This document shows positions 19,227-63,804 of a stretch of 64,000 nt of DNA, in pieces. Position 1 is the first letter of the stretch. Each line of letters opens with the position of its first letter. Source of the stretch: an uncultured Muribaculaceae bacterium. GTDB taxonomy: Bacteria > Bacteroidota > Bacteroidia > Bacteroidales > Muribaculaceae. Below the pieces are notes generated by a model. The model had not been told where the DNA came from. It worked only from the letters and a program-made list of their open reading frames with translations, and searched no databases. The DNA is taken from the NCBI GenBank assembly GCA_947627615.1, contig CANQWS010000007.1, positions 1-64,000 of the forward strand. Direction: 5' to 3'. Both the position numbers and the translations under genes were made by a program.

Positions 19227-19240
19227 GCAATTATATATCC
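19227..19240 (+). promoter_or_regulatory. Proposed late promoter
   Basis: GCAATTATATATCC followed by TATAAAT. It lies 17 bases before the GTG at 19258 (41 before the ATG at 19282). It is directly downstream of a terminator and upstream of genes carrying head-processing-type motifs. Confidence 0.7.
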
Positions 19241-19257
19241 TATAAATTCATTTAGGC

Positions 19258-19875
19258 GTGATTACAGAGCTTCTTTCAGGCATGAGTGTTTCGGAGTGTC
19301 GGCGTCGTGGTCTTTCGTCGCTTCGTCCGTCGGGTTTTTCAGGTCCGGGTCTTTATAGCCTTTGTAAGGTATCTGATTCGGTCTCATTGGTGCTGCTGTC
19401 TTCGGATGAGCTTTCCGGAGTTCAGGACGCTGCGTCTGAGGGGTCTTTCGTCACGTTTGGAGGCATTAAGTATCGGTTATTACAGGAGACGCCTAATGCG
19501 TGGCTTGTAGAGCCACTTTCGGGCGATGCTGGGGATTCGGATTCTTTCATCACGTTATTGAAGTCTCAGTATTCGGAACCCGATCCGGAGGTAGATGCAG
19601 ATCAGGAGTCGTTGGATGCAGCTACGAAGGCGCATGCTTCTACGCTTCCTTCGCCGTCGCGTTCTGCTTCTACGCATAAGGAGTCTGCCTCCTACGATTT
19701 CACTAAGCCGTACAAGGCTTCAGACTTGAAGTTGGTTGCCTACTCGTACATGAATCCTACGCTGTGGGCGGATGCGGTTAGTGCGGTTGCTTCGCGTGAT
19801 GGTTCCGATAAGATTATGGTTGGTAAAGTGGTTTCTGAGTATCGACGCTTGCGGCGTGCTTCTAAGAGTAAGTAG
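19258..19875 (+). CDS. Probable virion or head-assembly protein, 205 residues
   Basis: The start is GTG 19258, or ATG 19282 (MSVSECRRRGLSSLRPSGFS). The product has a folded N-terminal half, a Ser/Ala-rich linker (STLPSPSRSASTHKESAS) and a basic C-terminal tail (SEYRRLRRASKSK). It carries KVSDSV, an instance of the (V/I/L)-x-D-S motif seen in the capsid and protease. It is the first gene after a late promoter. No family is recognised. Confidence 0.5.
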   Translation: MITELLSGMSVSECRRRGLSSLRPSGFSGPGLYSLCKVSDSVSLVLLSSDELSGVQDAASEGSFVTFGGIKYRLLQETPNAWLVEPLSGDAGDSDSFITLLKSQYSEPDPEVDADQESLDAATKAHASTLPSPSRSASTHKESASYDFTKPYKASDLKLVAYSYMNPTLWADAVSAVASRDGSDKIMVGKVVSEYRRLRRASKSK

Positions 19876-19880
19876 TAGGT

Positions 19881-20624
19881 ATGCTTAGGGATAGTGATTA
19901 TAGGGATTTGTGTCGTGTCGAAGATTCTTCGGCCAGTTCTGTTTTTGACGCCGCTGGTGATTCTAAAGGCGTTTTGGGTGCTGTAGGTGGTGCTATTAAG
20001 AATGCTTTTAAGGAAGCGGGCAAGGGGTTACTTACGGATTTACTGTATGGCTCTACTGGCTTGAAGGGGTCGGATATCGTCGAGTTCTTTGACACGTTGG
20101 ACAAGAAGCTTCGTCATGGCGACCGTGCTGCTTTGTCTGCTGCGCTTGCGCAGATCGCATACGGCAAATGTAATCTGCAGGAGGGCTTCTACATTTTGAG
20201 TGCTACGGATGTCACTTCGTCGTCTATGGAGGATTACACTTTCAAGATGCCTATCTTTGCTGCTGTTGATTGGGACTCTTATAAGAAGCTTAAAGAGTAC
20301 AAGCGCGGTGCTTGGGAGGATATTGATGATGCGGACAGGCGTGATGACGCTAAGGCGCAGGAGGAGAAGGAGCTTGCCGAGTTGCAGTCTAAGTTTATCG
20401 ACAAGCCCTTGACGGATGCCTACGCAGGCGACGACTTTTTGGCTCACATCATTCCGAATCCTGTGTCTGGCGACTTGTCGGTTCATTGGGGTTACATTCC
20501 TAATAAGAACATTGCGCAGGCTTTTGTTGCGAATGTCTCCGGGGATCGTTCTTTCACACTCAGTGTCTTCAAGGATGATAAATCTGCGGTTACGGCCGTG
20601 AAGCAGAAAGAGGTTTCGAAGTAG
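19881..20624 (+). CDS. Probable virion or head-assembly protein, 247 residues
   Basis: The product begins MLRDSDYRDL, again a (V/I/L)-x-D-S match, and contains a small Gly/Ala-rich amphipathic stretch (GVLGAVGGAIKNAFKEAGKG) that could interact with membrane or other proteins. A charged central helix (DAKAQEEKELAELQSKF) and a beta-rich end follow. It is five bases from the previous gene. No family is recognised. Confidence 0.5.
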   Translation: MLRDSDYRDLCRVEDSSASSVFDAAGDSKGVLGAVGGAIKNAFKEAGKGLLTDLLYGSTGLKGSDIVEFFDTLDKKLRHGDRAALSAALAQIAYGKCNLQEGFYILSATDVTSSSMEDYTFKMPIFAAVDWDSYKKLKEYKRGAWEDIDDADRRDDAKAQEEKELAELQSKFIDKPLTDAYAGDDFLAHIIPNPVSGDLSVHWGYIPNKNIAQAFVANVSGDRSFTLSVFKDDKSAVTAVKQKEVSK

Positions 20625-20632
20625 TTGTGCCT

Positions 20633-24749: not shown

Positions 24750-24762
24750 GCATTAATTTGTT

Positions 24763-24788
24763 TATTAAATTAATTATACTTATATTTG
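24763..24788 (+). promoter_or_regulatory. Bacteroidetes-type promoter
   Basis: TTATTAAATTAATTATAC followed by TATATTTG at 24781-24788. An 8-codon open frame (MKYVDCAT, 24793-24819) lies between it and the ATG at 24832 and might be a leader peptide. Confidence 0.6.
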
Positions 24789-25878: not shown

Positions 25879-28662
25879 ATGATGATACGTTCGGTGCGGT
25901 TTATAGAGTCTTATTATAAGGTCCTGCATAACGGTTGTGAGTTTTACAACCGGGATGCAGGTCTTATGACGTCTGATGATTTTAAGTCTTCGGATGTCAA
26001 GTGGCTCATTGTGTTTCCGTCTTCGTCGTTCGACAAGGATAATTCGATGACGCCTACGGTTCTGTTGGACTTTGTTCGCAGTTCGTGTCCGGGTGTCTTC
26101 ATTGACTTTGCTTTTCTGCCTTGCCGGGATGACATTCGGTGGTATGATAAGGAGAGTATGCCTTACGCTATTGGTGTATCATCCCATCTGGACGCTTCTC
26201 ACTTTGACATTGTAGGCTTTAGTATTTCGTGTTTGTATGAGATTCCGGTAGTTCCGTGGATGCTTCAGTCTTTCTCGCGCTGCGATAAGCCTATTCCTCT
26301 TTCGTGGTCGGAGCGGAGTAAGTATAATATTGATGAGCTTCCGGTCATCTATGCGGGCGGTGCTTCTGTGGTCTACTCAGACATTTTGTTTGGCGACTTA
26401 GGCGATGGTCGCAAGAGCTATCTGGATTTCATGCATCTGGGTCAGGTCTGGTCCCAGACTCGCCTACTGCAGCTCATGTTGAATAAGAAGTACAAGAATC
26501 CGATTCGTATTGGTCGTGTTCCTTATCTTCTTTGGGAGCGTGGTGATCGTCATTGCTATATGCCGCAGGCTTATGATATTGTCTTTGATGGTTGTCGTGT
26601 AGTATCGGTTACGCCGACGTCATCTTCCGTCCCTTCGTCGGTTGTTTTTAATACGGGTCAGGAGAAGCCGTCGGGGCTTCTTGGTGCTTCTCGGGGTTAT
26701 CTTCGTGGTTCGGGTGGCAACGCGGGGCTGGCTATGGTCTCTGCTGCGGAGGGTTGTGGCTTTACGGGTAACTGTACCTTTTGTGCCGAGGGTCACATTG
26801 CGGGGGGCTTGCATGAGGAGTCGCAGGATGATATTGTTCGTATGGCCCGGGCAGCTAAGATATCGTCGGGTGCGGATACGGTTAAGCTTGCGTCTTACAA
26901 TTTGAATTATCTTACGGATTGGAAAGGCACGGTTGCTAGGGTTCAGGAGGTTTTTCCTACTGTTTCCTTCAGCAATATGCGGATGGAGGAACTTGGTCGG
27001 GATGAGGATGCTATGGAGCTGCTTTTTCAGCTAGGGTTCCGTCGCGGCACTGCTCCTATTGAGGGTATTAGTCCTCGTATTCGTAATGGGTATTATAACA
27101 AGGGCTTGTCCGAGGAGGCGCTGGATTCTTACATGCGTTTCATGGTTCATAGGGGTTGTTTGGACATCAAGGTTGGTATTGTCCTTTGCGGCCTTGAGGA
27201 GGGTGCTGATTGGCAGTGGTTGTATGACTTCACTAAGCGTTGGAAGGACTACGCTGCTTCCCGCGGGGGTAAGCTACCTATTCGGTATCGTTGTACGCCT
27301 TTGGTTCAGTATCCTTTGACGCCTATGGAGTATACGGCTAAGTCCGCCGCTCGCATTAGTTATGAGGATGGTGAGTGGGTTCCACGGTATTGGTTTGACA
27401 AGTTTGCTGCGGAGCTTGATACGCGCATTCAGGTTAACGGCTATCGTTACAGTACGTTGCTGGAGCAGGTTTTTGTGAGCTTGGGTCGTAAGATGACTTC
27501 GTCCTTGCAGTCGGTTTTGTCTTCCGGGCATTTCCTGTACAACATGCGCGCTTTGACTACTTCGTCTTTTATGGATGATATCCGTTCGGTTATTTCCGCC
27601 GATGCTGCATCTTTCTTTGAGATGCCGGATATTGATTCCTATGTTTCCATTCTGTCGGCGGTGTCCTCTCCTTTTTCAGAGGTTTGTAAGTTGCAGGGAC
27701 GTAACATCCAGTCGGGGCTTTCGGCGCTTCCTATGAGTCGTTGCCTTCGTACTAATGCAGTAGATCGCCTTACATGCTATGAGAAGATTTCAGGGGGTTG
27801 TACGGGGTGTTTTGGGAAGGCTGCCTCCTTGCGTCCATTTAACCGTCAGTTGCTATCTTCGGTCACTTCGAAGGATATTCTTGCCGTTGTTAAGCCAGAA
27901 ACGGTCCAAACGCTTCGTTTCAGGATAAAGAGGTATGGTTACGCCACAGTTTTAAATCCGCGTCATACAGCGCATATTTTGGCCTCGGCATTAATGCAGC
28001 ATTCTGAGGTATTGGCTGCGTCCTTTATTCGTGTTTCGAAGATTCATTCCATGTATGGTCAGTCTTATGCGGATAGTCATTGGGATGTTAGTGGGAGTCA
28101 GTTAGTAGACCTTGAGTTTAGGACATTGCTTTCTGCCGATGAAGTTAATGCGGCGATTGCATCTGCGAATTCGGTGCTACGCTCTTTTGTGATTTTGGGT
28201 TTCTCAGATGGGAGTCTTGATTCCGGCATCGAGTTATCAGACATGAATGTCTTTACATTCCGGTCGGATTTGCCTTTGGAGGTTTGGGATTTCGTTTTGC
28301 CGGAGTACGATGGTTCTGTCATGGTCCTTGAGGGTGACAAGTATTATCCTCGTCTTTTGAAGTCGGGGCCGTTATCTGCCCCGGTTGTTGGGGGTGCTTC
28401 GGGAGGTTCGAAGGGTGTCTTCGTGCTTCCGGTCCGTTGCAATCCGTGGTACTATCTTCGTGCTGTTTTGCGTCCTAAGCGAGTACATCCCAATAAACTT
28501 TATAGAGATACGTTTATTGACTGCGTTACAACGGTTAGGGTTAGGGATTATGCTGCTTGTAGTGGCTGTGGTTCCTCGAATGCCGTTTATGATATAGGTT
28601 CGGGTAAGTCTTATAACTTCTGCACGAGTTGTTTGACGAAGTTGTTATTGAAGAAGCTGTGA
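25879..28662 (+). CDS. Radical SAM protein with B12-binding-like and DUF2344-like regions
   Basis: The 927-residue protein has a Rossmann-like N-terminal part (about 50-250) resembling B12-binding-type domains, then the iron-sulfur loop EGCGFTGNCTFCAEGHIAGG at about residue 290. It has a CxxxxxCxxC spacing rather than CxxxCxxC, as in YgiQ-like radical SAM proteins. Residues about 680-760 (LRFRIKRYGYATVLNPRHTA, then LVDLEFRTLLSADEV) resemble the DUF2344 domain paired with such enzymes. The C-terminus has a Cys4 zinc ribbon (CSGCGSS and CTSCLTK). A further Cys cluster (ISGGCTGCFG) lies at about 640. Substrate is unknown; RNA or DNA base modification is a guess. Confidence 0.75.
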   Translation: MMIRSVRFIESYYKVLHNGCEFYNRDAGLMTSDDFKSSDVKWLIVFPSSSFDKDNSMTPTVLLDFVRSSCPGVFIDFAFLPCRDDIRWYDKESMPYAIGVSSHLDASHFDIVGFSISCLYEIPVVPWMLQSFSRCDKPIPLSWSERSKYNIDELPVIYAGGASVVYSDILFGDLGDGRKSYLDFMHLGQVWSQTRLLQLMLNKKYKNPIRIGRVPYLLWERGDRHCYMPQAYDIVFDGCRVVSVTPTSSSVPSSVVFNTGQEKPSGLLGASRGYLRGSGGNAGLAMVSAAEGCGFTGNCTFCAEGHIAGGLHEESQDDIVRMARAAKISSGADTVKLASYNLNYLTDWKGTVARVQEVFPTVSFSNMRMEELGRDEDAMELLFQLGFRRGTAPIEGISPRIRNGYYNKGLSEEALDSYMRFMVHRGCLDIKVGIVLCGLEEGADWQWLYDFTKRWKDYAASRGGKLPIRYRCTPLVQYPLTPMEYTAKSAARISYEDGEWVPRYWFDKFAAELDTRIQVNGYRYSTLLEQVFVSLGRKMTSSLQSVLSSGHFLYNMRALTTSSFMDDIRSVISADAASFFEMPDIDSYVSILSAVSSPFSEVCKLQGRNIQSGLSALPMSRCLRTNAVDRLTCYEKISGGCTGCFGKAASLRPFNRQLLSSVTSKDILAVVKPETVQTLRFRIKRYGYATVLNPRHTAHILASALMQHSEVLAASFIRVSKIHSMYGQSYADSHWDVSGSQLVDLEFRTLLSADEVNAAIASANSVLRSFVILGFSDGSLDSGIELSDMNVFTFRSDLPLEVWDFVLPEYDGSVMVLEGDKYYPRLLKSGPLSAPVVGGASGGSKGVFVLPVRCNPWYYLRAVLRPKRVHPNKLYRDTFIDCVTTVRVRDYAACSGCGSSNAVYDIGSGKSYNFCTSCLTKLLLKKL

Positions 28663-28964: not shown

Positions 28965-28967
28965 GTA

Positions 28968-30683: not shown

Positions 30684-30705
30684 TTCTCGGAATTCATTTG
30701 GATTA

Positions 30706-30728
30706 TTAAATTAACTTTCTTATCTTTG
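30706..30728 (+). promoter_or_regulatory. Bacteroidetes-type promoter
   Basis: TTAAATTAAC at 30706-30715 and TATCTTTG at 30721-30728, about 46 bases before ATG 30774. The boxes and spacing are almost identical to those at 20633-20655. Confidence 0.65.
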
Positions 30729-34528: not shown

Positions 34529-35101
34529 ATGGTGTGTGATCATGTTGTTGTAGACGATGCCACTGAGGTTAGTGTTTCGTCGGCTCGTGTTGTTATAGAT
34601 AAGCGGTTGCTGCTTTCTTTTTACCTGCATCCTACGGATGAGACTACGGAGGCGGAGCTTGCGGAGATTAATAAGGTCATCAGTATTGTTTTGAATACTC
34701 ATTTCGGTAAGTATTACCGCATGTTCGATGACTTGCGTTCGCAGGCTCTTGCTACTATTATAGAGCGTCATGATCGCTTCGATTCGAAGATGGCTGCTTA
34801 TCCTTATCTGTATACCATGATTCGCAACGAAGCGGGCAATTTGATTCGTCGTTTGCTTCGAGAGGATGACCTTGAGGTTCTGCCGCCGTCACGGGGTCGT
34901 GTTGCCGAGATTATTCCGAGTGTTTTAGACGAGCTTTTGCCGTTCTTGTCGGGTGATTCTCCGTTTACACGTATAGAGATTCCGCATGGTCTTGTAGGTC
35001 CGTTTCTTGTTTTTTGCCAACGTGGCTTAAACAAGAAACAGTCGGAGTCGGAGGCTATGGAGTCGGTTATTGGCAAATTAGTTGACATTTTTATTTTTTA
35101 A
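34529..35101 (+). CDS. Sigma-factor-like protein, possible late sigma
   Basis: The 190-residue protein has FDDLRSQALATIIERHDRFD followed by YPYLYTMIRNEAGNLIRRLL. This is the pattern of sigma-70 region 2 (helix, then Y...RN.A...IR). Its length is like T4 gp55, the small late sigma. A C-terminal helical part (LVFCQRGLNKKQSESEAMES) could be a weak region-4-like element. It would recruit host RNA polymerase to phage late promoters, for which GCAATTATATATCC is the candidate. ATG 34529 was chosen over TTG 34496. Confidence 0.65.
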   Translation: MVCDHVVVDDATEVSVSSARVVIDKRLLLSFYLHPTDETTEAELAEINKVISIVLNTHFGKYYRMFDDLRSQALATIIERHDRFDSKMAAYPYLYTMIRNEAGNLIRRLLREDDLEVLPPSRGRVAEIIPSVLDELLPFLSGDSPFTRIEIPHGLVGPFLVFCQRGLNKKQSESEAMESVIGKLVDIFIF

Positions 35102-36034: not shown

Positions 36035-36048
36035 TCAATTATATATCC
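36035..36048 (+). promoter_or_regulatory. Proposed late promoter (one mismatch)
   Basis: TCAATTATATATCC followed by CGGAAAT. It precedes the ferritin-like gene by about 40 bases and overlaps the stem of a terminator-like hairpin. Confidence 0.6.
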
Positions 36049-36083
36049 CGGAAATCTTGGTAGATTTCTGGGGTATTTTGTTT
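36047..36083 (+). terminator. Hairpin overlapping the late promoter
   Basis: CCCGGAAATCT, loop TGGT, AGATTTCTGGGG, then TATTTTGTTT. It has terminator shape but lies between promoter motif and start codon, so it may instead be a 5' mRNA hairpin or terminate upstream transcripts only. Confidence 0.5.
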
Positions 36084-36087
36084 GGTT

Positions 36088-36621
36088 ATGAATGAAGGTT
36101 TGATTTGCGGTTTATCGCGTGTTGAGGATTCTCTGGATGATTTGTATTCGGAGGCCTATGTTGCTTCTATGGGCCAGCTTTTGGAGATTGCGGCCTGCGA
36201 GGAGATTCTGGCTTGGGCACAGTATGCTGTAGTTTCTCCCTATCTTGTTGGCGAGGAGCGTGCTAACATCGAGGAGCTTTTCAATACGAATGCCAAGGAC
36301 GAGCTTGACGATCATTTCTGGAAGCTCCAGAACCGCATGAATGAACTTCAGTACGTCCCTAAGACGTTATTTGACTTTTCTAAGATTCAGTCTACCGCCC
36401 GTTGTGAGTACCATATCCCTACGGATGTTGCGGACTTGATTACGCTTCTCAAGCAGAATATCGAGTCGGAGGAGTGCGCTATTCGCACTTACCAGAATAT
36501 CATTATGGTTGCCCGTGATAATTCCGATTTTGTCACGGAGCGTATTGCTAAGGAGATTCAGGACGACGAGGCTCAGCATCTCTCGGACTTGAATGACTTT
36601 TTGGCCGACTTGGAGTCTTAG
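36088..36621 (+). CDS. Ferritin-like four-helix protein
   Basis: The 177-residue protein has a ferritin/bacterioferritin-type pattern of paired helices with acidic and His residues: EEILAWAQYAVVSPYLVGEE, AKDELDDHFWKLQNRMNELQ, NIESEECAIRTYQNII and EIQDDEAQHLSDLNDFLADL. The E-(x)n-ELDDH and E-(x)n-DDEAQH pairs could bind two iron ions. Possible roles are iron handling or protection of phage DNA from oxidation, or a structural use of the fold. It lies next to the terminase genes under a late-type promoter. Its SRVEDS start also fits the processing motif. Confidence 0.6.
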   Translation: MNEGLICGLSRVEDSLDDLYSEAYVASMGQLLEIAACEEILAWAQYAVVSPYLVGEERANIEELFNTNAKDELDDHFWKLQNRMNELQYVPKTLFDFSKIQSTARCEYHIPTDVADLITLLKQNIESEECAIRTYQNIIMVARDNSDFVTERIAKEIQDDEAQHLSDLNDFLADLES

Positions 36622-36741: not shown

Positions 36742-38712
36742 ATGGGTTCAGTTAAGGATACGATGCATCGTCGGGGTGGTGTTGCTTCTGCCGTCAGCGA
36801 CTTGCTTCTTACGGAGCGCAAGCTAGTAGGATTCCGGGAGTTTATTCTTTCTCCAGACTATATGGCTTTGGAGGGGGTCTATCCTTTCTGGTTGAAGGAG
36901 TCGGATGCCCTCTCTCAAGATCATAACTCACTGATACTCACAGGCTCGTTGGGCGGGGGAAAATCATCATTCATGAACATGGTGATATGCTATAAGTTAT
37001 ATTACTGGTTTAATCAGGGTGACTTGTATAGCTATTTTCAAATCCTTCGTGGTACGCCTATTTACTTTTTGTATTTCTCTGTATCTATGAAGGCCGCGGA
37101 GCGTTCTGGTTTTAAGCAGTTGCGCCAGATGATCGATAATGCCCCGTGGTTTAAAAATAATTTTCCGCGTCGTAAGGACATTCAGTCTTCCATTCAGTTT
37201 AATAATAATTTCTCCATAGAGTTTGCTTCGGGCGAGAGCCATGCTATTGGTTTGAATGTCGTTGGCGCTGTTATTGACGAGGCCAACTTCCGCAATGGTG
37301 TCGGGCAGGGTACTGTTTCAGAGTATTCGGAGGTTCAGCGCTTGGCCCAGCAGTTGGAGGACCGTATGCATTCTCGTTTTACCCGTGAGGGTGGTAAGTT
37401 GATTTCTTTCATGGGGTACATTTCCTCGGCGTCTTACCAGTCTTCGTTTATTGAGGATAAGATTGCCGAGGTGCAGGGTAACAAATATGCCCGTGTTGTT
37501 ACTGCTGTTCAGTATAAGATTTGCCCTCAGAATTACTCTCCTAAGAAGTTCGAGGTGTTCTGTGGCTACCAGCAGATTTCCCCGTGTATTGTCCAGAGCA
37601 AGGAGCATAAGGCTACGCTTCTGAAGTCTATGAGTCTTCCGAAGTCTAAGGCGGAGGGTTATTTTGAGCGTGTTCCGGAGGACCTGAAGTCGCAGTTCAA
37701 GAAGAATATCTATTTGGCCATCCAGAACCATTGCGGACGCTCTACAGCGGCTAAGGGTAGTTTTATTACGAACTATGATGTCGTCCGCAAGGCCTATAGC
37801 GATGCACTGCTTCGTGCGTGTCCTTTGGTTCAGAGTAGTATTGTTGTTTCGGATCAGGATGATACTCCTATCCGCTCTGTTCTTGATGTTTCACGTTTAC
37901 AGTATACGGATCGTCCTCATGCCTTGTGCTTGGACTTGTCTTTGACGGGCGACCACGGTTCTTTGTGCTGTGTTCGGTTTGATGGCTATGCGGCAGACGG
38001 TCGAGCTTTGCATAATGAGGTTTTCAATTTAGAGCTTGTTCCTCCGGCGTTTCCGGGGATGCTGAAGGTTTCGAAGGTCGAGGATTTCATTTTGTGGCTT
38101 GCGGATCATTTGAATATCGCGGTTTTTAGTACTGACCAGTTTCAGTCTACGCAGCTTCGTCAGAATGTGTGCGAAGCTTTGATGCTTCCGGATATCCGCC
38201 TTTCTTTGGATAGCTCCGACATTCCTCATTTGTTGTGGCTTTCGATGTTAGTTGACGAGCGTCTTGGTCTTCTTTACTTGGAGCGTCAGGATCGAGAGAT
38301 TCGGGAGGCGGTCCATGATGTTGTCAAGCACAAGGTTGTCAAGCGTGACGGGTCTTCGGACGACCAGTTCCAGACTTTAGTCGGTGCCTTCTTCTTGTCG
38401 GAGACGATCTGTACGCAGGAGGGAGATATATCATCTTTACTTGATGCGCGCCTTAACTTGGTTGGTGCGGGTAATATTAACCGTATGCTTAAGTCACTTG
38501 GCTATGGTGGTCTATCTTTGGATGGTCGGGGTCACGTTGCCCGTGCTGTGACTTCGGATATCGAAGCCCCGCGCCCAAGTGTCCGTTCACTTCTGGAGGG
38601 TCGCGCTGCTTCGGGTCCGTCGTTTACGAGTTCAGATGTTATTGCTTCTATGACGCCGCGCCGTAGACGTGGCGGGGTCTGGGACTTGATTAACGGTCTG
38701 GATAATAAGTGA
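36742..38712 (+). CDS. Terminase large subunit
   Basis: The 656-residue protein has a P-loop GSLGGGKSS at residues 68-76, Walker B VGAVIDEANF at about 174-183, and a C-terminal RNase H-like nuclease domain beginning LCLDLSLTGDHGS (first Asp at about 394). STDQFQS fits the second acidic position. Together these make the packaging ATPase-nuclease motor that pumps DNA into the prohead via the portal at 39427. A terminator before it and a late promoter after it suggest separate transcription from neighbours. Confidence 0.9.
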   Translation: MGSVKDTMHRRGGVASAVSDLLLTERKLVGFREFILSPDYMALEGVYPFWLKESDALSQDHNSLILTGSLGGGKSSFMNMVICYKLYYWFNQGDLYSYFQILRGTPIYFLYFSVSMKAAERSGFKQLRQMIDNAPWFKNNFPRRKDIQSSIQFNNNFSIEFASGESHAIGLNVVGAVIDEANFRNGVGQGTVSEYSEVQRLAQQLEDRMHSRFTREGGKLISFMGYISSASYQSSFIEDKIAEVQGNKYARVVTAVQYKICPQNYSPKKFEVFCGYQQISPCIVQSKEHKATLLKSMSLPKSKAEGYFERVPEDLKSQFKKNIYLAIQNHCGRSTAAKGSFITNYDVVRKAYSDALLRACPLVQSSIVVSDQDDTPIRSVLDVSRLQYTDRPHALCLDLSLTGDHGSLCCVRFDGYAADGRALHNEVFNLELVPPAFPGMLKVSKVEDFILWLADHLNIAVFSTDQFQSTQLRQNVCEALMLPDIRLSLDSSDIPHLLWLSMLVDERLGLLYLERQDREIREAVHDVVKHKVVKRDGSSDDQFQTLVGAFFLSETICTQEGDISSLLDARLNLVGAGNINRMLKSLGYGGLSLDGRGHVARAVTSDIEAPRPSVRSLLEGRAASGPSFTSSDVIASMTPRRRRGGVWDLINGLDNK

Positions 38713-38727: not shown

Positions 38728-38741
38728 GCAATTATATATCC
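38728..38741 (+). promoter_or_regulatory. Proposed late promoter
   Basis: GCAATTATATATCC followed by TATAAAT, 20 bases before ATG 38762. Confidence 0.7.
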
Positions 38742-38761
38742 TATAAATTTATATTTTGATT

Positions 38762-41011: not shown

Positions 41012-41029
41012 AGTTCTAGGACTTGCATA

Positions 41030-41053: not shown

Positions 41054-41072
41054 TGTCATAAATAGGTGTTTT

Positions 41073-42535: not shown

Positions 42536-42549
42536 GCAATTATATATCC
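42536..42549 (+). promoter_or_regulatory. Proposed late promoter
   Basis: GCAATTATATATCC followed by TTAAAAT, 23 bases before ATG 42573. Confidence 0.7.
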
Positions 42550-42572
42550 TTAAAATTAAAGTTTTAGGATAT

Positions 42573-44804: not shown

Positions 44805-44818
44805 GCAATTATATATCC
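44805..44818 (+). promoter_or_regulatory. Proposed late promoter
   Basis: GCAATTATATATCC followed by CACAAAT, only 13 bases before ATG 44832. Confidence 0.75.
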
Positions 44819-44831
44819 CACAAATTCGGAG

Positions 44832-45585: not shown

Positions 45586-47082
45586 ATGACTGATTATTTA
45601 TCTTTGGACGCACGCCGCGTTACTGATAGTATCGCCGCTGCTCGTGCCGACAAGCGCACTGCAAAAGCCATGCTGAAGTCGGAGAAGCTTGGCAATCTGA
45701 CTACGCTTAAGGAGCGTGGTATTCAGGCTGGTATTCTGAACAACTTCAGCCGTGCCATTCAGGATTCTATTGATGCTCCCGCTACTCGCGGTCAGCAGGT
45801 TAACATGATGTCGGACTTCGGACCTTACATTCCGGAGGTCTTCCCCATCGTTGCCGCTTGGTATCCCGACTTCCCGCTGAAGGACCTGATCTCGGTTCAG
45901 GACATGAATCAGGATTTGGCTTACCTGTTCTTCTCGAAGCTGGTTACTGGCACCAACAAGGCTCCCACGATTACGGGTCAGGTTGTTGAGACCGCTACGG
46001 GTATGCGTCAGATCAACGGCTACTATCCTACGGGTGAGATCATGGGTGAGACCATTCCGGAGGAGCAGCTTGAGTACGACGCCGCCACGAACGAGCTTGT
46101 AGCCATGACGGCTTACTACGCTCTGAACACCAGTGGTGATTATCTGGAGAAGTTCCTCATCAATGTTTACAAGGACAACGCTATCGTTGCTACCCTGATT
46201 GCTACGACCGTTCAGAACGGCAAGGTTATGCTGGTCAACAGTGCTAACCCCGGTGTTTCGAATGGTTCGTACATGGTCGTTGAGTCGGGTGCCATCATGC
46301 TGGCTTCTGCCGATATCAACAACCTTCAGGCTACGACGGGTGTTTGTCTGAACGTGAACTACGTTTGGAACCTCGACTACGCTATTCAGGAGAACATCCC
46401 GAAGGTTAAGGAGCAGGTTGAGCGTGTTGAGATGCGCGCTATTCCCCGTGCTATTGGCATGGAGTGGACTATCTTCGCCGAGGCTCTGAAGAAGTCGCAG
46501 TTCAGCACCGACATTCGCGTTGAGAACACCAAGCGCGTCCTTGATCTTCTGTACCAGTATCAGGTTCGTTACATCCTTGATACCATGTGGACTTACGCTG
46601 CAGGTGCTCCCGGTACCATTACCCTCAACATGTCCAACAACTTCTCGCTGGACGTACAGGCTGCTGACCTCATGCGTCAGCTCAAGCAGTACGCTACGCA
46701 GATCGAGATCGCTACGGGCCGTATCGAGGGTAACCGTCTTGTCGTCGGCAAGAACCTGAAGTCGTTCCTTGAGTCGCTGCCCACCACGTGGTTTAAGCCT
46801 GTTGCTACACCGAGCGGCTTCTCGTCACCTCGTGAGATCGGTACCTTTGGAACTTTCAAAGTGTATTACGATCCCTACCGCGCCGACAACGAGGCCTTCA
46901 TGACCTACCGGGGGGATCAGTGGTTTGATGCTGCATTTTATTGCGGGATTTACTTACCTATCGTTCCGACGGATACTGTGGCACTTGGGGTTACGGTCCG
47001 TCAGTCTATGGTCAGCATGGAAGCGTATTTGTTCCATAAGAAGACGGCGGTGGTTCGCCTTACGGTTAACTACGGGGCCTAG
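45586..47082 (+). CDS. Major capsid protein
   Basis: The 498-residue protein follows the protease gene and is encoded with unusually C-rich, optimised codons relative to neighbours, as expected for the most abundant protein. The N-terminal about 60 residues are helical and basic. Motifs VTDS (12-15) and IQDS (58-61) fit a propeptide that the protease removes. After this come MMSDFGPYIPEVFPIVAAWY and FPLKDLISVQDMNQ, a gp23-like capsid entry segment. Residues 60-87 match the 188-residue protein at 20672. Confidence 0.85.
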   Translation: MTDYLSLDARRVTDSIAAARADKRTAKAMLKSEKLGNLTTLKERGIQAGILNNFSRAIQDSIDAPATRGQQVNMMSDFGPYIPEVFPIVAAWYPDFPLKDLISVQDMNQDLAYLFFSKLVTGTNKAPTITGQVVETATGMRQINGYYPTGEIMGETIPEEQLEYDAATNELVAMTAYYALNTSGDYLEKFLINVYKDNAIVATLIATTVQNGKVMLVNSANPGVSNGSYMVVESGAIMLASADINNLQATTGVCLNVNYVWNLDYAIQENIPKVKEQVERVEMRAIPRAIGMEWTIFAEALKKSQFSTDIRVENTKRVLDLLYQYQVRYILDTMWTYAAGAPGTITLNMSNNFSLDVQAADLMRQLKQYATQIEIATGRIEGNRLVVGKNLKSFLESLPTTWFKPVATPSGFSSPREIGTFGTFKVYYDPYRADNEAFMTYRGDQWFDAAFYCGIYLPIVPTDTVALGVTVRQSMVSMEAYLFHKKTAVVRLTVNYGA

Positions 47083-47105
47083 TCATTTTGACGGTGTGTT
47101 TTTCG

Positions 47106-47140
47106 ATCCGGGTGGTTTTTCCGCCCGGATTTTTGTTTTT
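47106..47140 (+). terminator. Intrinsic terminator
   Basis: ATCCGGG, loop TGGTTTTTCCG, CCCGGAT, then TTTTGTTTTT. It ends the capsid transcript. Confidence 0.85.
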
Positions 47141-47163
47141 GTCAATATTCTTACGTATATTTG
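47140..47163 (+). promoter_or_regulatory. Bacteroidetes-type promoter
   Basis: GTCAATATTCTTACG followed by TATATTTG at 47156-47163. It would drive the homing endonuclease gene with a leader of about 110 bases. Confidence 0.5.
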
Positions 47164-48347: not shown

Positions 48348-49606
48348 AGGAGATTGCATACAATTTTACACAACCTCTTGCAATAAACGTAAAATAATTG
48401 GAACTTGATGCCATGAAGAAGGCATTCAAATATCGCATTTATCCGAACAAGGCTCAACAAGCCTTGCTCCAAGTGACGTTTGGATGCTGCCGATTCGTCT
48501 ACAACAAAACGCTCGACATCCGGAAGAAGGCGTACGAGACTGACAAGACGAAACTTTCCAAGTTCGATCTTATCAAGAAGATAACGCCGCTTAAAGAGGA
48601 ATTCCCGTGGCTACGCGACGTACCGCATGTATGCTTACCGCAAGCCGTCTACAACATGGATGCAGCATATCAAAACTTCTTTAAGTCAGGTAAAGGATAT
48701 CCAAAGTTTAAGTCTAAGCATCGTAGTCGCAAGTCTTGTAAGTTTCCATCCTCACATTGTGCGGTGTTACAAGATACAAGTCACTTAAAACTTTCTAAGC
48801 TAGGCTTAGTCAAATATAAGAAAGACCGTGAATTCGCAGGGGTTTTACGTCACATTGTAGTTACACAAGAAAGTGACGGTAGGTACTACGCTTCGTGTTT
48901 GGTCGAGACGGGCGCCGATGCACCTGAGCCGCAGCCTGTAGAAGCTAGTACAACGGTCGGCATTGATTTAGGACTCAAAGACTTTATCGTCACGTCCGAC
49001 GGGCGCAAGATATCCAATCCGCGGTTCTACGCTACTATCGACCGTCGTTTGGCTTGTTTGCAGAAGCATGAAGCTAAAAAGACGAAAGGTTCGAAGCGCC
49101 GTGCACGCATCCGTTTAAAGATCAACAAGCTTTATGTCAAGAAACGTAATTTAATAAAGAACTACATTTACTATGTCGCTAAGACGTTACTGCGTGAAAG
49201 CCAAACGTTAGTAATGGAAGATTTAAACATTGTCGGCATGGTTAAGAATCATAGTTTAGCTAAATCCATCCAGAACATTTGTTGGGGTGAACTACGTAGA
49301 GTTCTGGAGTACAAGTCACAGTGGTCGGGTCACAACTTAATCTTCATAGATCGTTGGGCACCGAGTACGAAGACTTGTAGTCATTGCGGGTTCCACAATT
49401 CCACATTGACGCTTTCGGATCGTTCGTGGGTTTGTCCGGGCTGCGGTACACACCATGATCGAGACATCAACGCTGCGCTCAACATTAAGCGTATGGGTTT
49501 AGCGTCATTATTGCCTGCGGTGAGCGGGTTCGACGGGCGTGGAGAGGTCGGTTACGGTCTCGACGAAGCGTCAATATGTACAGTTTAAAATTGTATATAA
49601 TCACCT
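48348..49606 (+). mobile_element. TIR-bounded tnpB element C
   Basis: The left end GGAGATTGCATACAATTTTA (from 48349) and the right end TAAAATTGTATATAATCACC (to 49605) are inverted repeats. An A/T pair extends them to 48348 and 49606. The length of 1259 bp is the same as element A. Only tnpB is inside. It inserted 28 bases after the homing endonuclease stop. Confidence 0.85.
48413..49588 (+). CDS. tnpB: TnpB RNA-guided nuclease (element C)
   Basis: ATG 48413 gives 391 residues (MKKAFKYRIYPNKAQQALLQ), the same length as copies A and B; the TTG at 48398 was rejected. RuvC residues (VGIDLGLKDF, VMEDLNIVGM, HDRDINAALN) and the zinc finger (CSHCGF, CPGCGTHH) are intact. The protein differs from A at scattered positions and mostly at 110-130. 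The guide for its omegaRNA would be the flank from 49607 on (TTGTTAAAATAATGACTAG). Confidence 0.9.
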   Translation: MKKAFKYRIYPNKAQQALLQVTFGCCRFVYNKTLDIRKKAYETDKTKLSKFDLIKKITPLKEEFPWLRDVPHVCLPQAVYNMDAAYQNFFKSGKGYPKFKSKHRSRKSCKFPSSHCAVLQDTSHLKLSKLGLVKYKKDREFAGVLRHIVVTQESDGRYYASCLVETGADAPEPQPVEASTTVGIDLGLKDFIVTSDGRKISNPRFYATIDRRLACLQKHEAKKTKGSKRRARIRLKINKLYVKKRNLIKNYIYYVAKTLLRESQTLVMEDLNIVGMVKNHSLAKSIQNICWGELRRVLEYKSQWSGHNLIFIDRWAPSTKTCSHCGFHNSTLTLSDRSWVCPGCGTHHDRDINAALNIKRMGLASLLPAVSGFDGRGEVGYGLDEASICTV

Positions 49607-50717: not shown

Positions 50718-50873
50718 ATGGTTGTTCTGGAGGTCTTTGAGTTCCTTATTGGGGTTGTTCTATATCTTCTAGGTTTTTGGCTCGCTTGTGCGGTTCTTTT
50801 TGCGGTCTTGGGTTACCTTTATTGGTTTGTGGGCCTCCTAGTGCGCGCGTGCAATTATATATCCCACAAATAA
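50718..50873 (+). CDS. Small membrane protein, 51 residues
   Basis: ATG 50718 opens a frame with one long hydrophobic region, VFEFLIGVVLYLLGFWLACA followed by VLFAVLGYLYWFVGLLV. These could span the membrane once or twice. Its last seven codons coincide with the late-promoter motif at 50851-50864 (CNYISHK). A holin, antiholin or superinfection protein is possible; evidence is only the hydrophobicity. Confidence 0.4.
   Translation: MVVLEVFEFLIGVVLYLLGFWLACAVLFAVLGYLYWFVGLLVRACNYISHK
50851..50864 (+). promoter_or_regulatory. Proposed late promoter
   Basis: GCAATTATATATCC followed by CACAAAT, 21 bases before ATG 50886. It overlaps the 3' end of the small membrane protein gene. Confidence 0.75.
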
Positions 50874-50885
50874 AATTTGGTGGTT

Positions 50886-51224
50886 ATGGATTTGTATAGT
50901 GTTTTGTCTGCAGACTTTGCTACGTTTCAGGAGGAGCTTGAGGCAACGGCGCCTAAGTCGGATGCTTGGGTTATCAGTGGTGAGGGTGATACTGCTGTTT
51001 TGAAAGGTAAGCTTTCGCAGGCGTCTTTTGAGATTTCCAAGGATGCCGACAGTCAGGATGTCCGTATGGATATTGTCGGCTCGGATATTCCTTCGTCGGT
51101 CCATGCTATTGTTCTGAATACAGTGTTCGACGACGCTATGTCTGCGGTTGCTGCTGCTGTTCAGATCAACGGTGTTTATTCGGAGGCTTTGTCTTCTGTT
51201 AATGACATTCTGCGTAACGCCTAG
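50886..51224 (+). CDS. Hypothetical virion protein, 112 residues
   Basis: The first gene of the neck/tail operon. It has an N-terminal helix (YSVLSADFATFQEELEATA) and beta strands (DTAVLKGKLSQASFEISKDA), ending in a helix. No family is recognised. ATG 50886 was chosen over TTG 50877 because it follows the promoter at the usual distance. Confidence 0.5.
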   Translation: MDLYSVLSADFATFQEELEATAPKSDAWVISGEGDTAVLKGKLSQASFEISKDADSQDVRMDIVGSDIPSSVHAIVLNTVFDDAMSAVAAAVQINGVYSEALSSVNDILRNA

Positions 51225-53894: not shown

Positions 53895-54902
53895 ATGTAC
53901 AGAGGTATTGTTTACTTGCGGCCTTCGCCGTCGGTTAAGTACTACGTCGGCTTGACTACGAATGAGACCAAGCGTCAGGAGCATTGGTTAAATATCAAGC
54001 GCGACTACGGTGGTTATCTTATCCGTGACGCCCGGAAGCGCTATCCGCCGGAGACGTGGGGTTACACGGTTTTGGCGGAGGTTCTTAGCCCTTCGCGGTC
54101 CGACCTTATGGTTTGGCTTAATGCGCTGGAGGTTTACTTTATTTGGCGTTATGACTCTAATAACCCGGAGCACGGTTATAACCTCACACGTGGTGGTGAG
54201 GGCCGTCTTGGTTATAAGTGTCGTCCGGAGGTTAAAGCACGTCTTTCGGCCTTATACAAGGGTCGCCCGCTTTCCGAGGAGACGAAGGCGAAGCTTTCTC
54301 GTGCGGCTAAGGGTCGCAAGGCTTCGGAGGAGACACGACGGAAGATGTCTGCTTCGCGGAAGGGATATCGTCATACTGAGGCTGCGAAGGCTAAGATGTC
54401 TGCTGTTCAGCGAGGGTTGGTTAAGTCGGTTTCTGGCGGTATTAAGTTGAGTGCTTTATTTAAAGGCCGTAAGATTTCTCAGTCTCATAAGGAGAAGTTG
54501 CACGCGGCTTGCAAGAAGGCGGTACTGCAGTATTCTCTTTCGGGTGAGTTGCTGGCGGAGTTTGATAGTGCTACTGCTGCGAGTGCGTCACTGGGGGTTT
54601 GTTATGGTCCTATCAGTCAGTGTTGCCGAGGCACTCTAAAGACGGCTTACGGGTTCAAGTGGGTTTTCAAGAATCCTGCACCACCGGCTATCAATCGTTC
54701 AGATTGTTATGTGGGTCAGTTTAGTTTGGATGATGTACTGTTGCATGTTTATCCGTCTGCAGCAGAAGCTGCTAGAGTGACTTCTGGGTTTGTGTATAGC
54801 ATTCGTGCTTGCTGTCGTGGAGTGCATGCTTCTTCGGGAGGTTTTCGTTGGCATTATGTTCATCGGGTTACTCATGCAATTATATATCCCATAAATAAAT
54901 AA
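53895..54902 (+). CDS. GIY-YIG homing endonuclease
   Basis: The 335-residue protein begins MYRGIVYLRPSPSVKYYVGL (GIY-YIG), with DARKRYPPETWG and ALEVYFIWRY as in the homologue at 47279. NUMOD3-type repeats follow (SEETKAKLSRAAKGRKASEE; KMSASRKGYRHTEAAKAKMS). A C-terminal NUMOD1-like helix-turn-helix region is DSATAASASLGVCYGPISQC and AAEAARVTSGFVYSIRACCR. Its last codons coincide with the promoter of the sheath gene. Confidence 0.85.
   Translation: MYRGIVYLRPSPSVKYYVGLTTNETKRQEHWLNIKRDYGGYLIRDARKRYPPETWGYTVLAEVLSPSRSDLMVWLNALEVYFIWRYDSNNPEHGYNLTRGGEGRLGYKCRPEVKARLSALYKGRPLSEETKAKLSRAAKGRKASEETRRKMSASRKGYRHTEAAKAKMSAVQRGLVKSVSGGIKLSALFKGRKISQSHKEKLHAACKKAVLQYSLSGELLAEFDSATAASASLGVCYGPISQCCRGTLKTAYGFKWVFKNPAPPAINRSDCYVGQFSLDDVLLHVYPSAAEAARVTSGFVYSIRACCRGVHASSGGFRWHYVHRVTHAIIYPINK
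54876..54889 (+). promoter_or_regulatory. Proposed late promoter
   Basis: GCAATTATATATCC followed by CATAAAT, 27 bases before the sheath ATG 54917. It lies inside the end of the homing endonuclease frame (encoding AIIYPINK). Confidence 0.75.
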
Positions 54903-54916: not shown

Positions 54917-56740
54917 ATGGGTAAGTCAGCGAATCCCTTAGTCCAAATTTCATATACGGATGAAACCAACTACGTCGAGGCTTCTAGTACTGACGACGTG
55001 ATGGGTATGGTTATGGATGCCAACTGGGGTCCTTGTGGGACACCTGTTGTTTGCAATAGTACCACTTTCCGTTCTATTTTCAATCCTCAGGGTTTGGGTC
55101 GTTTGAATGGCACGCTTGCCACGGCGCTTCGTGCTTTCGAGAAGAATCAGTCTTACATCGAGGTTGTCCGCTTGGGCAGTAAGGAGAATTGGCTGTTTGT
55201 GTATATTACGAGTGCTGGTACGGTAGGTACCTATTCGCATCCTTACAGTACCGATTCTTCGGCTATTGACTTCTCGGGCGTAGCTACGGCTATCGAGACT
55301 TCGTTTAAGGGCGATTCTAAACCTACGGTTCAGGCTTTGTTCCGTCTTCGTTATCCGGGGGGCTTCCCAGCCCAGATTACTTTGTCGGCGTCGCCTAAGA
55401 CGTTCTTGGGCACCCAGATGTATAGTCTGGAGCTTGCAGCTTATTCGGGTCAGACTTACACTACTGCTGGTGCTTTGGCTCGTAGTAAGAGTACGAAGGC
55501 TTCGGGTGCTACGGCGCAGCCGTCTTTCACCAATATCCTTGAGACCTTGACTTTCTCGCTTGTGGACTTGACCTACAACGGTGTTTCGTATAATTACGCT
55601 GATGTTATTACGAATGACTCGACGTACTTTGTTTCGGACGTTGCGTGGGCTGCGGGTAAGTCTGTTAGTGTTGCTTTGACGAACGCGCCGTTCGCATACA
55701 CAGTTGCTGATGCGGAGATTCCGGGCATTGCTTCTCTTTCTTCTACAGTTCCGGCTTACGTGGCAGATGACTTCGTCGCAGCCTACGATCTTTTCAAGGA
55801 TCGTGACATTTCGTCGTCTACGGAGTTGGTTAATAGTTACCTTTGGGATGCTTATCTGGAAGGCAATAGTGAGCCTGTTTTTGATTCCTCTGCGGGTCCG
55901 GGTAAGGTCATGTCTAAGATGTCTGAGATCGCTGAGCTACGTCAGGACTGCTGCGCCTTGCTTGGCTTCCCTACGACGGTTAATTCGTCTGCGTGGATCA
56001 ATCCTAACGAAGTTAATTGGGAGACTACTACCCGTACGAATGCTCGCACTTGGTTCGACGCTATTGCTAATGCGGGTCTGAACATGCATTCGTTCGGCAT
56101 CGTCGGCTGGGAGCGCTATACGCTTCGTACTACGATGGGTGTTAAGGTCTATAACCTTGACTGTACTGCTGGGTGGTGTGGCCGTATTAGCGCTGTTGCT
56201 GCTTCTACTCGCAATCGGAACCAGCTTCCGTCTTACAAGGCTTATGGTACTTACCCGTCGACGCTTGTTCGGACTATGAGCTTTGAGAATGTCGTTGAGA
56301 TGCATAAGGAGGACGGTATTGGTTCTGTTTATAGCACTGCTACGGGTAACTTCATCTTTGACGTGAAGGGTCTCTACGGAGTCGGCACTTCCTACTTTGC
56401 TCAGGCGAACGTTATGCGCGTCATTGAGTTCTTGCTTAATAATAGCTACGACATCATTGAGCAAGTTATCCATACGGACGTTGCCGCTAACAAGGCTTCA
56501 CGTGTTGACCTTGAGGGTCGTATGAACACAATGCTTGGCTGGTTTATCTCTCGCAATGAGCTTAAGGCCGAGTCGTATGTTGATATTGGGGATTCTTTGA
56601 ACAGCGATGATCTGACGAACGGCGGTGAGTACTTGAATATTAACATTGTCTGCTACTTCTTGAAGTTGACGCAGGGTGTTAATATTAACATCATTGCCCG
56701 TGATGGTAGTGTTAGTTCGTCTGTTTCGATGGTTAATTAA
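54917..56740 (+). CDS. Contractile tail sheath protein
   Basis: The 607-residue protein has the sheath layout: an N-terminal linker strand (SYTDETNYVEASSTDDVMGM), variable beta domains, then the conserved C-terminal domain. Its MNTMLGWFISRNELKAESYV and VDIGDSLNSDDLTNGGEYLN, with a final NINIIARDGSVSSSVSM strand, match myovirus sheaths. LCALLGFP-type text is present as CCALLGFPTTVNSSAW. It forms the contractile outer tail around the tube at 56761. This gene establishes the myovirus morphology. Confidence 0.85.
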   Translation: MGKSANPLVQISYTDETNYVEASSTDDVMGMVMDANWGPCGTPVVCNSTTFRSIFNPQGLGRLNGTLATALRAFEKNQSYIEVVRLGSKENWLFVYITSAGTVGTYSHPYSTDSSAIDFSGVATAIETSFKGDSKPTVQALFRLRYPGGFPAQITLSASPKTFLGTQMYSLELAAYSGQTYTTAGALARSKSTKASGATAQPSFTNILETLTFSLVDLTYNGVSYNYADVITNDSTYFVSDVAWAAGKSVSVALTNAPFAYTVADAEIPGIASLSSTVPAYVADDFVAAYDLFKDRDISSSTELVNSYLWDAYLEGNSEPVFDSSAGPGKVMSKMSEIAELRQDCCALLGFPTTVNSSAWINPNEVNWETTTRTNARTWFDAIANAGLNMHSFGIVGWERYTLRTTMGVKVYNLDCTAGWCGRISAVAASTRNRNQLPSYKAYGTYPSTLVRTMSFENVVEMHKEDGIGSVYSTATGNFIFDVKGLYGVGTSYFAQANVMRVIEFLLNNSYDIIEQVIHTDVAANKASRVDLEGRMNTMLGWFISRNELKAESYVDIGDSLNSDDLTNGGEYLNINIVCYFLKLTQGVNINIIARDGSVSSSVSMVN

Positions 56741-61953: not shown

Positions 61954-63524
61954 TGCAGAGGGCAGAGGTTGACATACAGGGTGCGGGTGTTGATGCTTTT
62001 CTGGCTCTTTCCGCAGAGACGCTGCAGGTCTGGGCTGCGGCTATGGCCCAACTGTCTTCGGAGGATGTTGCGGATGCAGAGCTGCCTGCCATGTCTCCGT
62101 CTGCCTTACGTGCTTACATTGAGTCTCATGACATAGATGACGTTGCGGATGATGCCGAGCGTTCTGCTTCTACGGATGATGACGAGGATGGCGGTGGGGT
62201 TCTAGGCTGGCTTCTGCGTTGTGCGGGGAGTGCTGCTATTCCTGCGTCGGTTAAGGCGGGCCTTGCTCTTTTGGATATTGTGATGTCCGTGGGTCAGGCT
62301 GCCTTGTGGGGTTTTCTCCTGTTTGGCGGCTTCAAATTGATTCACCGGACATCTACCGCCAAGTTAAAGATCGACGGCTCAGAATCAGACTTTACGACCG
62401 AGTGGGCTTTGGTCCCTACGTGGTTTTCGGAACTTGCGTCCGGTTCCGGGGGTGGTGCGGTTGTTCGAGGTACTCGTGCTTACTCGGAGGTTCAGGGCTA
62501 TGTTGGTTCTGAGTTATATAAGCTTCTGGTCGGTGAGGAGTACGCCCGTGAGGATAAGGGTGTTGTTTCTACCGAGTATGGTATTATTGACTCACTTCAT
62601 AGTAGACCTCACTCTGGTCTTGATTTGCGTATTGCTGGAGGCACTCCTTTGCGGTCTTTAGGTGATGGTGTTGTGACTCGCGTCTGGGAGGGCGGTTCAG
62701 GCGGCAAATCGCTCCAGATTACGCTTGATAACGGCATAGTGATAGGCATGGCCCACCTGCAGGACAATTCGCTTGTTCCGGTGGGCACACGTGTCCGCAA
62801 AGGGGACGTTGTAGCCGTTTCCGGTAATACGGGTACACATACTACTGGTGCTCATCTTCATATTACTTTCCGGCGTGCTTCGAATATGGGTTCGACGGTT
62901 AATCCTGCTTCCATCATGCCGGAGTTAGGTATTTCAGTTCCTATGGCACAGACATCTTCTTTTCCGGCAGATAGACAGGCTCAGGGTTATTCTATTACTC
63001 TAGGTTCCTCCTTAGCTAAGAATGCTTATAATTTGACAGGCTTGCAGGCTTTCGGCACACAGTGGAAAGGCAAGTCGGGTACGGTTCAAGCTTCTGGGGG
63101 TCGTGTTTTCGAGCGCTTCACTTCTCCGGAGTGGAGTCTTCGTGCTACGATGGGTACTCTTTTGAACTACCAGACTCGGAAGGACATTTCCCGGTCTGGG
63201 GGTGCTTGGACTACCATTGGTGATATTTCCCGTATGTATGTAGGCGGAGGTTACACGAACCGTCCGGCTTACGAAGGGGATGATATTGTTCAGTATGCCC
63301 GTAACATTTCGGAGTTTTCCGGTTATGGTGTTGATGAGCGTATTGATGTTCGCCGTCCGGAGGTCATTGAGAAGCTCACACAGGCTATTGCCCGTCAGGA
63401 GTCTTTTTCGATTGTTTCGGATACGGCTATTAAGCAGGTTCGTGCTGTTGCTTTCAATGACTTCTCGTCGGCAGTGAATAAGCAGGATGTTTCGGGGCTT
63501 AGTTCCAACTATCAGAAGTTTTGA
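61953..63524 (+). CDS. Baseplate/tail M23 peptidase with membrane-like segment
   Basis: The 523-residue protein has a hydrophobic segment (LLDIVMSVGQAALWGFLLFG) at about residues 108-127. It then has an M23/LytM endopeptidase domain at about 205-330 with HSGLDLRIAGGTPLRS, HLQDN and HLHITFRR, which provide the HxxxD and HxH zinc ligands. It would cleave peptidoglycan peptide bridges during DNA injection. The rest is beta-rich and helical (tail association). It is the last gene before the GT-rich spacer. Confidence 0.8.
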   Translation: MQRAEVDIQGAGVDAFLALSAETLQVWAAAMAQLSSEDVADAELPAMSPSALRAYIESHDIDDVADDAERSASTDDDEDGGGVLGWLLRCAGSAAIPASVKAGLALLDIVMSVGQAALWGFLLFGGFKLIHRTSTAKLKIDGSESDFTTEWALVPTWFSELASGSGGGAVVRGTRAYSEVQGYVGSELYKLLVGEEYAREDKGVVSTEYGIIDSLHSRPHSGLDLRIAGGTPLRSLGDGVVTRVWEGGSGGKSLQITLDNGIVIGMAHLQDNSLVPVGTRVRKGDVVAVSGNTGTHTTGAHLHITFRRASNMGSTVNPASIMPELGISVPMAQTSSFPADRQAQGYSITLGSSLAKNAYNLTGLQAFGTQWKGKSGTVQASGGRVFERFTSPEWSLRATMGTLLNYQTRKDISRSGGAWTTIGDISRMYVGGGYTNRPAYEGDDIVQYARNISEFSGYGVDERIDVRRPEVIEKLTQAIARQESFSIVSDTAIKQVRAVAFNDFSSAVNKQDVSGLSSNYQKF

Positions 63525-63532
63525 CGAGCACA

Positions 63533-63611
63533 TACGTATATGTAGGGACTTACTATTTTATTACGATGACAGGCCGGGGTTTTCCTCGGCCTTCGTTGTG
63601 GTTTATGGGGG
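63533..63611 (+). repeat. Intergenic repeat, copy 2, with hairpin
   Basis: TACGTATATGTA, ACTTACTATTTTAT, then the hairpin AGGCCGGGGTTTTCCTCGG onward (63571-63592) and TTCGTTGTGGTTTATGGGGG. It matches 11092-11094 plus 11261-11338, where a MITE splits the copy. Here it is intact and follows the M23 peptidase gene. Confidence 0.75.
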
Positions 63612-63790
63612 TTACGCGGGGGTTGTGGGCTGTGTGTTGTGTGTGGGTTCCGGGTTGTTGGGTGCTTTCGGTTTCGGCCTTCGTTGTGGGTTCCGGGTTT
63701 TGCTTAGGGTTGTGTATGCCGTATGGTTTGTTCGTTTGGACCTTCGTTGCAGGTGTTTTTGTTTTTTTTTGCATGTAGTGTTGGTTTTGT
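63612..63790 (+). other. G/T-rich non-coding spacer, copy 2
   Basis: About 180 bases mostly of G and T with runs such as GGGTTCCGGGTTGTTGGG and a T8-9 tract near 63764. It is similar in composition and context to 11339-11458, but not identical in order. It ends at a late promoter. No credible gene was found in it. Confidence 0.6.
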
Positions 63791-63804
63791 GCAATTATAT
63801 ATCC
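63791..63804 (+). promoter_or_regulatory. Proposed late promoter
   Basis: GCAATTATATATCC followed by TAGAAAT, 16 bases before ATG 63821. Confidence 0.75.

Follow-up and report, generated by a model that had tools for sequence, protein, structure and literature searches.

A recurrent 21-base element as the probable late promoter of a large tailed phage in a Muribaculaceae genome bin

The stretch of DNA analysed here (64,000 nucleotides, called the window below) comprises bases 1-64000 of a contig of 88,410 bases (C7) in the 3.36-Mb genome bin, 118 contigs in all, of an uncultured Muribaculaceae bacterium. C7 is phage sequence, and a recurrent 14-base box on it, GCAATTATATATCC, was proposed in a first-pass annotation to be a phage-specific late promoter. 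In this study, we define the element as GCAATTATATATCC-NNN-AAAT, 21 bases that were scored over 18 fixed positions. According to our own gene calls one strand holds 102 of the 103 C7 genes, whose products include a distant T4-like major head protein, a head protease, a clamp loader, RecA/UvsX, RuvC, methyltransferases and a terminase; the portal and the baseplate gave weak matches. Two further phage contigs were found via the motif, namely C32 (31,051 bases), which carries a family A DNA polymerase with intein domains, and C51 (20,810 bases), which carries fibre-like genes and a holin-like gene. The end of C7 overlaps the start of C32 by 77 bases, and C51 and the start of C7 have the end of an insertion sequence (IS) in common. 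Therefore, the three contigs (140,271 bases in total) are probably a single phage genome of at least 140 kb, the link of C51 being the weaker one. Positions on C32 and C51 refer to the reversed, coding-strand contigs. The SusD family gave nine matches in the genome bin and, among 14 control genomes, was matched in Bacteroides ihuae only; by these matches the bin belongs to Bacteroidota. The copies of the element in the window, together with weaker sites and the clearest upstream hairpin, are:

8019-8039, plus strand: weak copy, 14/18, with an IS end directly after it; status uncertain
9490-9503, plus strand: weak copy, two mismatches, without AAAT, upstream of the RecA/UvsX-like gene 9695-10804; status uncertain
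11459-11472, plus strand: weak copy, one mismatch, without AAAT, upstream of 11542-11841; status uncertain
19183-19207, plus strand: strong hairpin then T run, ending 19 bases before the 19227 copy
19227-19247, plus strand: copy at 18/18, then GTG 19258 or ATG 19282
36035-36055, plus strand: copy at 17/18, before the ferritin-like gene 36082-36621 and the terminase gene 36742-38712; overlaps a terminator-like hairpin, 36043-36076
38728-38748, plus strand: copy at 18/18, before the gene 38756-39415 and the portal gene 39427-40947
42536-42556, plus strand: copy at 18/18, before the head-fibre-like gene (ATG 42573)
44805-44825, plus strand: copy at 18/18, before the head protease 44832-45539 and the major head protein 45586-47082
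50851-50871, plus strand: copy at 18/18, before the gene 50877-51224
54876-54896, plus strand: copy at 18/18, before the gene 54917-56740; overlaps the end of the open reading frame (ORF) 53895-54902
63791-63811, plus strand: copy at 18/18, before the gene at 63818

All seven exact copies of GCAATTATATATCC claimed by the first-pass annotation (the 18/18 sites above) were found in place, as were its imperfect copies, with one mismatch at 36035 and 11459 and two at 9490. The additional claim of a following NNNAAAT holds for the seven exact copies and for 36035; AAAT is absent after 9490 and 11459. A motif search over the whole phage (C7, C32 and C51) yielded 13 sites at 18/18 and one at 17/18 (36035), all on the coding strand, and these 14 strong copies are the basis of all counts below. 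The further exact copies beyond the window lie at C7 67141, at C7 82579, on C32 (two) and on C51 (two). On the coding strand no site scores 15 or 16, and four score 14/18; the opposite strand has no site at 14/18 or above and eight at 13/18, and in 60 dinucleotide shuffles no site reached 16/18, with a mean of 0.23 sites at 14/18 or above. In the genome bin, all 13 exact copies are confined to the three phage contigs, and a reversed control pattern gave none. Outside the 21 bases the 14 copies have little in common, and thus they are not part of a longer duplicated repeat. The information content amounts to 33.3 bits over 22 columns, compared with the 14.3 bits needed for locating 14 sites on both strands. 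The ferritin-like gene behind the 36035 copy (Dps/rubrerythrin-like) follows this copy directly and heads the terminase unit. The weak copies 9490 and 11459, both lacking AAAT and located before RecA and other non-virion genes, have GCAATTCTATA(T/C)CC in common and could represent a middle promoter class.

An ORF of at least 40 amino acids begins 5-26 bases past AAAT at 13 of the 14 copies (6-34 bases if only the first ATG is counted, with one GTG). The reported distance of 13-27 bases from the end of the 14-mer to the start codon is correct for most copies in the window; 36035 (33 bases to a TTG, 39 to an ATG) and 19227 (17 to a GTG or 41 to an ATG) are exceptions, and the 50851 copy has an alternative TTG start at 12 bases. 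Only the 54876 copy overlaps an ORF, namely the last codons of the preceding one, and the other copies in the window are intergenic if the downstream start codon is taken. It was also claimed that several copies follow terminators directly. In the window this is clearly so for 19227; the other clear cases lie outside it, and the hairpins about 50 bases before 42536 and 50851 are weaker. Across the phage, a strong hairpin with a T run lies 19 (19227), 11 (C7 67141), 11 (C32 9963), 72 (C32 12260), 6 (C51 1967) and 25 bases (C51 12609) upstream of the motif. Strong hairpins thus precede 6 of the 14 copies, compared with 11 among 136 other gene starts (Fisher p 0.0015; the distance windows of the two groups differed slightly). 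In total, the coding strand has 44 strong hairpins and the opposite strand 16, compared with 10-16 in five mononucleotide shuffles.

A second promoter class was detected in the phage. The pattern TTTG-N(17-21)-TAnnTTTG, which we take to be the Bacteroidota promoter consensus, occurs 12 times on the phage coding strand, each time outside coding sequence, with a single further site on the opposite strand. The spacer is exactly 20 in all 13 sites, although 17-21 was allowed. In the whole bin, the N20 form was found 118 times compared with 7 for reversed controls, and the N19 form 60 times compared with 11. As judged from this excess, TTTG-N20-TAnnTTTG is the host's own promoter type. Several of the phage copies have a longer common sequence and are sited before clusters of small ORFs. 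Host-type sites in the window include:

954-985, plus strand: host-type promoter, pattern match
24757-24788, plus strand: host-type promoter, pattern match
30697-30728, plus strand: host-type promoter TTTG-N20-TAnnTTTG, upstream of the clamp loader and the sigma gene described below
41022-41055, plus strand: relaxed match to the host-type promoter, CTTG in place of TTTG; small ORFs follow
47132-47163, plus strand: host-type promoter pattern, immediately past the strong hairpin 47105-47131, itself located behind the major head protein

For 22 annotated genes, chosen for recognisable function, the nearest upstream promoter was scored; the relaxed host-type sites 41022 and C32 22725 were included and 65910 was left out, and adding 65910 alters no assignment. 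The 21-base motif is the nearest upstream promoter for 10 of 10 virion or lysis genes, compared with 2 of 12 others (Fisher p 0.0001). Host-type sites are nearest for 10 of the 12 other genes; three of these ten assignments are doubtful, so that 7 of 12 are clean. The motif therefore differs, as proposed by the first-pass annotation, from a separate host-type class that stands before non-virion genes.

The phage also encodes a sigma factor:

34529-35101, plus strand: phage sigma factor gene, Sigma70 region 2 at residues 71-120 of the long form, region 4 not detected

The ORF opens at TTG 34496, and ATG 34529 sits past the stop of the preceding gene; from this arrangement ATG 34529 is the likelier start. 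A Sigma70 region 2 search of the whole bin gave 14 matches, one of which is on C7 at 34706-34855 (Pfam E 1.9e-5, 24.8 bits against a cut-off of 24). With a profile of 13 host sigma region 2 sequences, the phage sigma ranked first of 151 phage proteins (E 9.6e-5, the next at 0.77). For region 4, Pfam PF08281 was not found on C7, and a host region 4 profile gave E 5.3. No match at E 0.1 was obtained by tblastn against 50,697 phage records, no useful match among PDB sequences, and the comparison with T4 gp55 was negative in BLAST and single-sequence hhalign. The gene lies 3.8 kb downstream of the host-type promoter 30697 without a strong hairpin between them, an arrangement that fits a gene made before the late phase.

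Pre-gene position, strand, absence elsewhere in the bin, upstream terminators, the separate host-type class and the phage sigma all support the phage-specific late promoter that the first-pass annotation had suggested. We consider it likely that the 21-base element is the late promoter of a large tailed phage and is read by the phage sigma with the host core polymerase. The copies with their number, strand and location ahead of genes, the sigma domain and the two promoter classes are observed, whereas promoter activity, timing, recognition by the phage sigma and the -10 register are what we infer from sequence. Early, host RNA polymerase with host sigma would use the TTTG-N20-TAnnTTTG promoters and transcribe genes including the phage sigma. 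Late, the phage sigma, with region 2 and no detectable region 4, would guide the host core polymerase to the 21-base elements, whose AAAT end (consensus YAYAAAT) would most likely be the -10 element that opens. We place the -10 there because YAYAAAT is like TATAAATA, which in T4 is read by a sigma of similar build, gp55, and is recognised at -13 to -6 (PMC1524935, in excerpt). Transcription would start within about 10 bases past AAAT, giving very short leaders and starts just before the start codons, and the invariant 14 bases just upstream would replace the -35 element, with either the sigma or an adjacent second phage protein reading them. In an alternative register, TATATAT may be the -10 element, with AAAT at the start site.

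Several observations weigh against this assignment. The Pfam match of the sigma is only just over the cut-off, and no match to the PHROG sigma families (phrog_234, 34068, 12791) was found at E up to 10. The split between the promoter classes is not clean, as the motif is the nearest upstream promoter of the helicase (72857) and the DNA polymerase, 5.7 and 5.4 kb away. RecA, the 14025 methyltransferase and the phosphoesterase count as host-type only if the weak motif variants are excluded, and their host-type site is 8.7-16 kb distant, behind a terminator. Genes within one transcription unit are not independent in the assignment test, and several virion annotations are weak, namely those as collagen, BACON, portal and baseplate. 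No ORF begins within 130 bases of the C51 copy at 1967, which is followed by an IS element. Under a looser terminator rule hairpins showed no excess over shuffles (C7: 45 compared with 50, 41 and 34), because the coding strand is T-rich. Finally, a relative carrying the motif, as needed for a conservation test, was not found in the collections searched.

Phage sigma factors with their own promoters are known from phiEco32 and 7-11, and in 7-11 the promoters were predicted from sequence (PMC4331800, in excerpt). The phage described here resembles both in its phage-encoded sigma, in a short conserved element without a classical -35, and in having late copies before virion genes and host-type promoters for early genes (PMC4331800). 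However, the consensus in these enterobacterial phages (TAATGTATA / TG-TGATGT-TATA) spans about 9-12 bases, whereas the element in this Bacteroidota setting has 21 bases, 18 of them fixed, and another sequence. The likeness to T4 lies in a small sigma that reads the -10 element only, in the late genes served, and in YAYAAAT resembling TATAAATA (PMC1524935, PMC3184105, both in excerpt), and the major head protein is distantly T4-like. In contrast, the T4 late promoter has no fixed upstream box, whereas here an invariant 14-base box stands above YAYAAAT. A T4-type promoter consisting of TATAAATA was rejected: this sequence has two coding-strand occurrences in the phage, neither of them at a motif copy. 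T4 gp55 itself matches the three PHROG families named above and not Sigma70_r2 in the same library, whereas the reverse is true of the phage sigma. Unlike extracytoplasmic function (ECF) sigmas, the phage sigma has no region 4 that could be found for a -35 element. As a counter-example, Ma-LMM01 keeps host promoters throughout (PMC5780444, in excerpt).

It is tempting to speculate that the late promoter is compound. A sigma with region 2 only would open the T4-like YAYAAAT, and a second phage protein on the abutting 14-base box would replace both the -35 contact and the sliding-clamp tether. We regard this as possible but rather unlikely. Among the proteins scanned, none was recognised as a T4-type sliding clamp or as gp33; a clamp loader is encoded close to the sigma gene. 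If this proposal were true, the two-fold information excess would reflect the reading of one site by two proteins. A second binding protein was suggested for the information excess of T7 promoters by Schneider and Stormo, as cited in PMC2680408, and other authors in the same source, in the part available, give other reasons for over-specification.

Less probable still, the element might be a late promoter that depends on an activator: a phage DNA-binding protein distinct from the sigma would read the 14-base box and bring in host polymerase carrying host sigma, and the phage sigma would serve other genes. The invariance of the box, its roughly 33 bits far beyond the approximately 14 needed, and the fact that region 2-only sigmas such as T4 gp55 read the -10 element only (PMC3184105) would suit such an activator. 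However, the element lacks the host-type -7 element (TAnnTTTG), no activator gene was identified, and a phage sigma is present that needs promoters.

Two further explanations appear very unlikely to us. T7-type single-subunit RNA polymerases use promoters of about 20 bases that are nearly invariant. A phage polymerase of this kind could read the element, which is like T7 late promoters in its length, invariance and excess information (PMC2680408, in excerpt). However, no such polymerase was found when 14 of the 15 phage proteins with at least 600 amino acids were scanned against Pfam, in a phage genome that is possibly incomplete, nor did RNA_pol PF00940 match in the whole bin at E up to 1, a search in which no control genome matched either. 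A multi-subunit phage polymerase was rejected, as D.DGD or related short patterns occur in none of the 151 phage proteins. With similarly low probability, the element might function at the RNA level, as a signal in the leaders of late mRNAs that affects their translation or processing, with promoters further upstream. Its proximity to start codons would agree with this, but the strong terminators 6-25 bases upstream of five copies leave little space for another promoter, an argument against an element that acts in RNA alone, and host-type promoters stand before other genes and not before the motif-headed ones. That the element is a short mobile repeat or a recombination site with no part in transcription is scarcely credible, and this reading was rejected, since, despite near-identical copies and the same IS end directly after two motif-like sites (C51 1967 and C7 8019), the copies have a single orientation, always precede gene starts and have unshared flanks, and the IS end is absent from 12 of the 14.

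The major head protein, terminase, sigma, helicase and head protease gave no confirmed relative in IMG/VR, and the sigma gave none in genome contigs. Searches of 295 genomes from the order and 397 from the family found the major head protein each time in its own genome only. The 14-mer alone occurs in at least 120 IMG/VR stretches. The 18-position pattern was matched in 5 IMG/VR contigs and 27 genome contigs, with one match per stretch in scattered taxa, and we read these matches as chance. Two of 124 IMG/VR loci (L056 and L098) have four sites each with up to 2 mismatches. Two near-identical fecal fragments, MT839083.1 and MT839121.1, do not extend over any motif copy. In the open full-text literature searched, with subscription literature and preprints outside its scope, no paper contained the element sequence, and none among the matches listed dealt with late promoters of Bacteroides or crAss-like phages. 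Phage sigmas with their own promoters are already known (T4, phiEco32), whereas the motif and the sigma described here appear to be new. The proposed scheme of a host-type early class, a phage sigma and a highly specific late class would amount to a near-complete sequence-level model of transcription in a Bacteroidota-associated phage that has no close relative in the collections scanned. Once isolated, the element and the sigma would be candidates for an orthogonal expression pair in Bacteroides laboratory strains. The over-specified element also offers a test case of promoter choice by a sigma without region 4.

Other features of the phage contigs were noted. An Rfam scan of the window gave nothing, and PDB searches with two large phage proteins gave no useful match. 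A 927-amino-acid protein is encoded at 25879-28662, with weak radical SAM matches under the Pfam cut-off. The family A DNA polymerase on C32 (26903-31051, minus strand) contains a LAGLIDADG domain besides an intein splicing domain. One and the same IS end starts 20-30 bases past the C51 copy at 1967 and past the weak copy 8019 (C51 oriented 1967-2030 and window 8019-8075), and on C51 it separates the putative late promoter from a fibre-like gene. Seven near-full genes for TnpB (IS605 OrfB), with 82-100% identity, are spread across C7, C32 and C51:

3641-4813, minus strand: near-full TnpB gene
8265-9437: near-full TnpB gene
48413-49585: near-full TnpB gene
C7 81292-82461, minus strand: near-full TnpB gene
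C32 and C51: the other near-full TnpB genes

Three further TnpB genes at about 30% identity are found in C32, and two fragments in C7 (15856-16092 and 30815-31291). This load of one IS family is unusual for a phage and probably broke the assembly.

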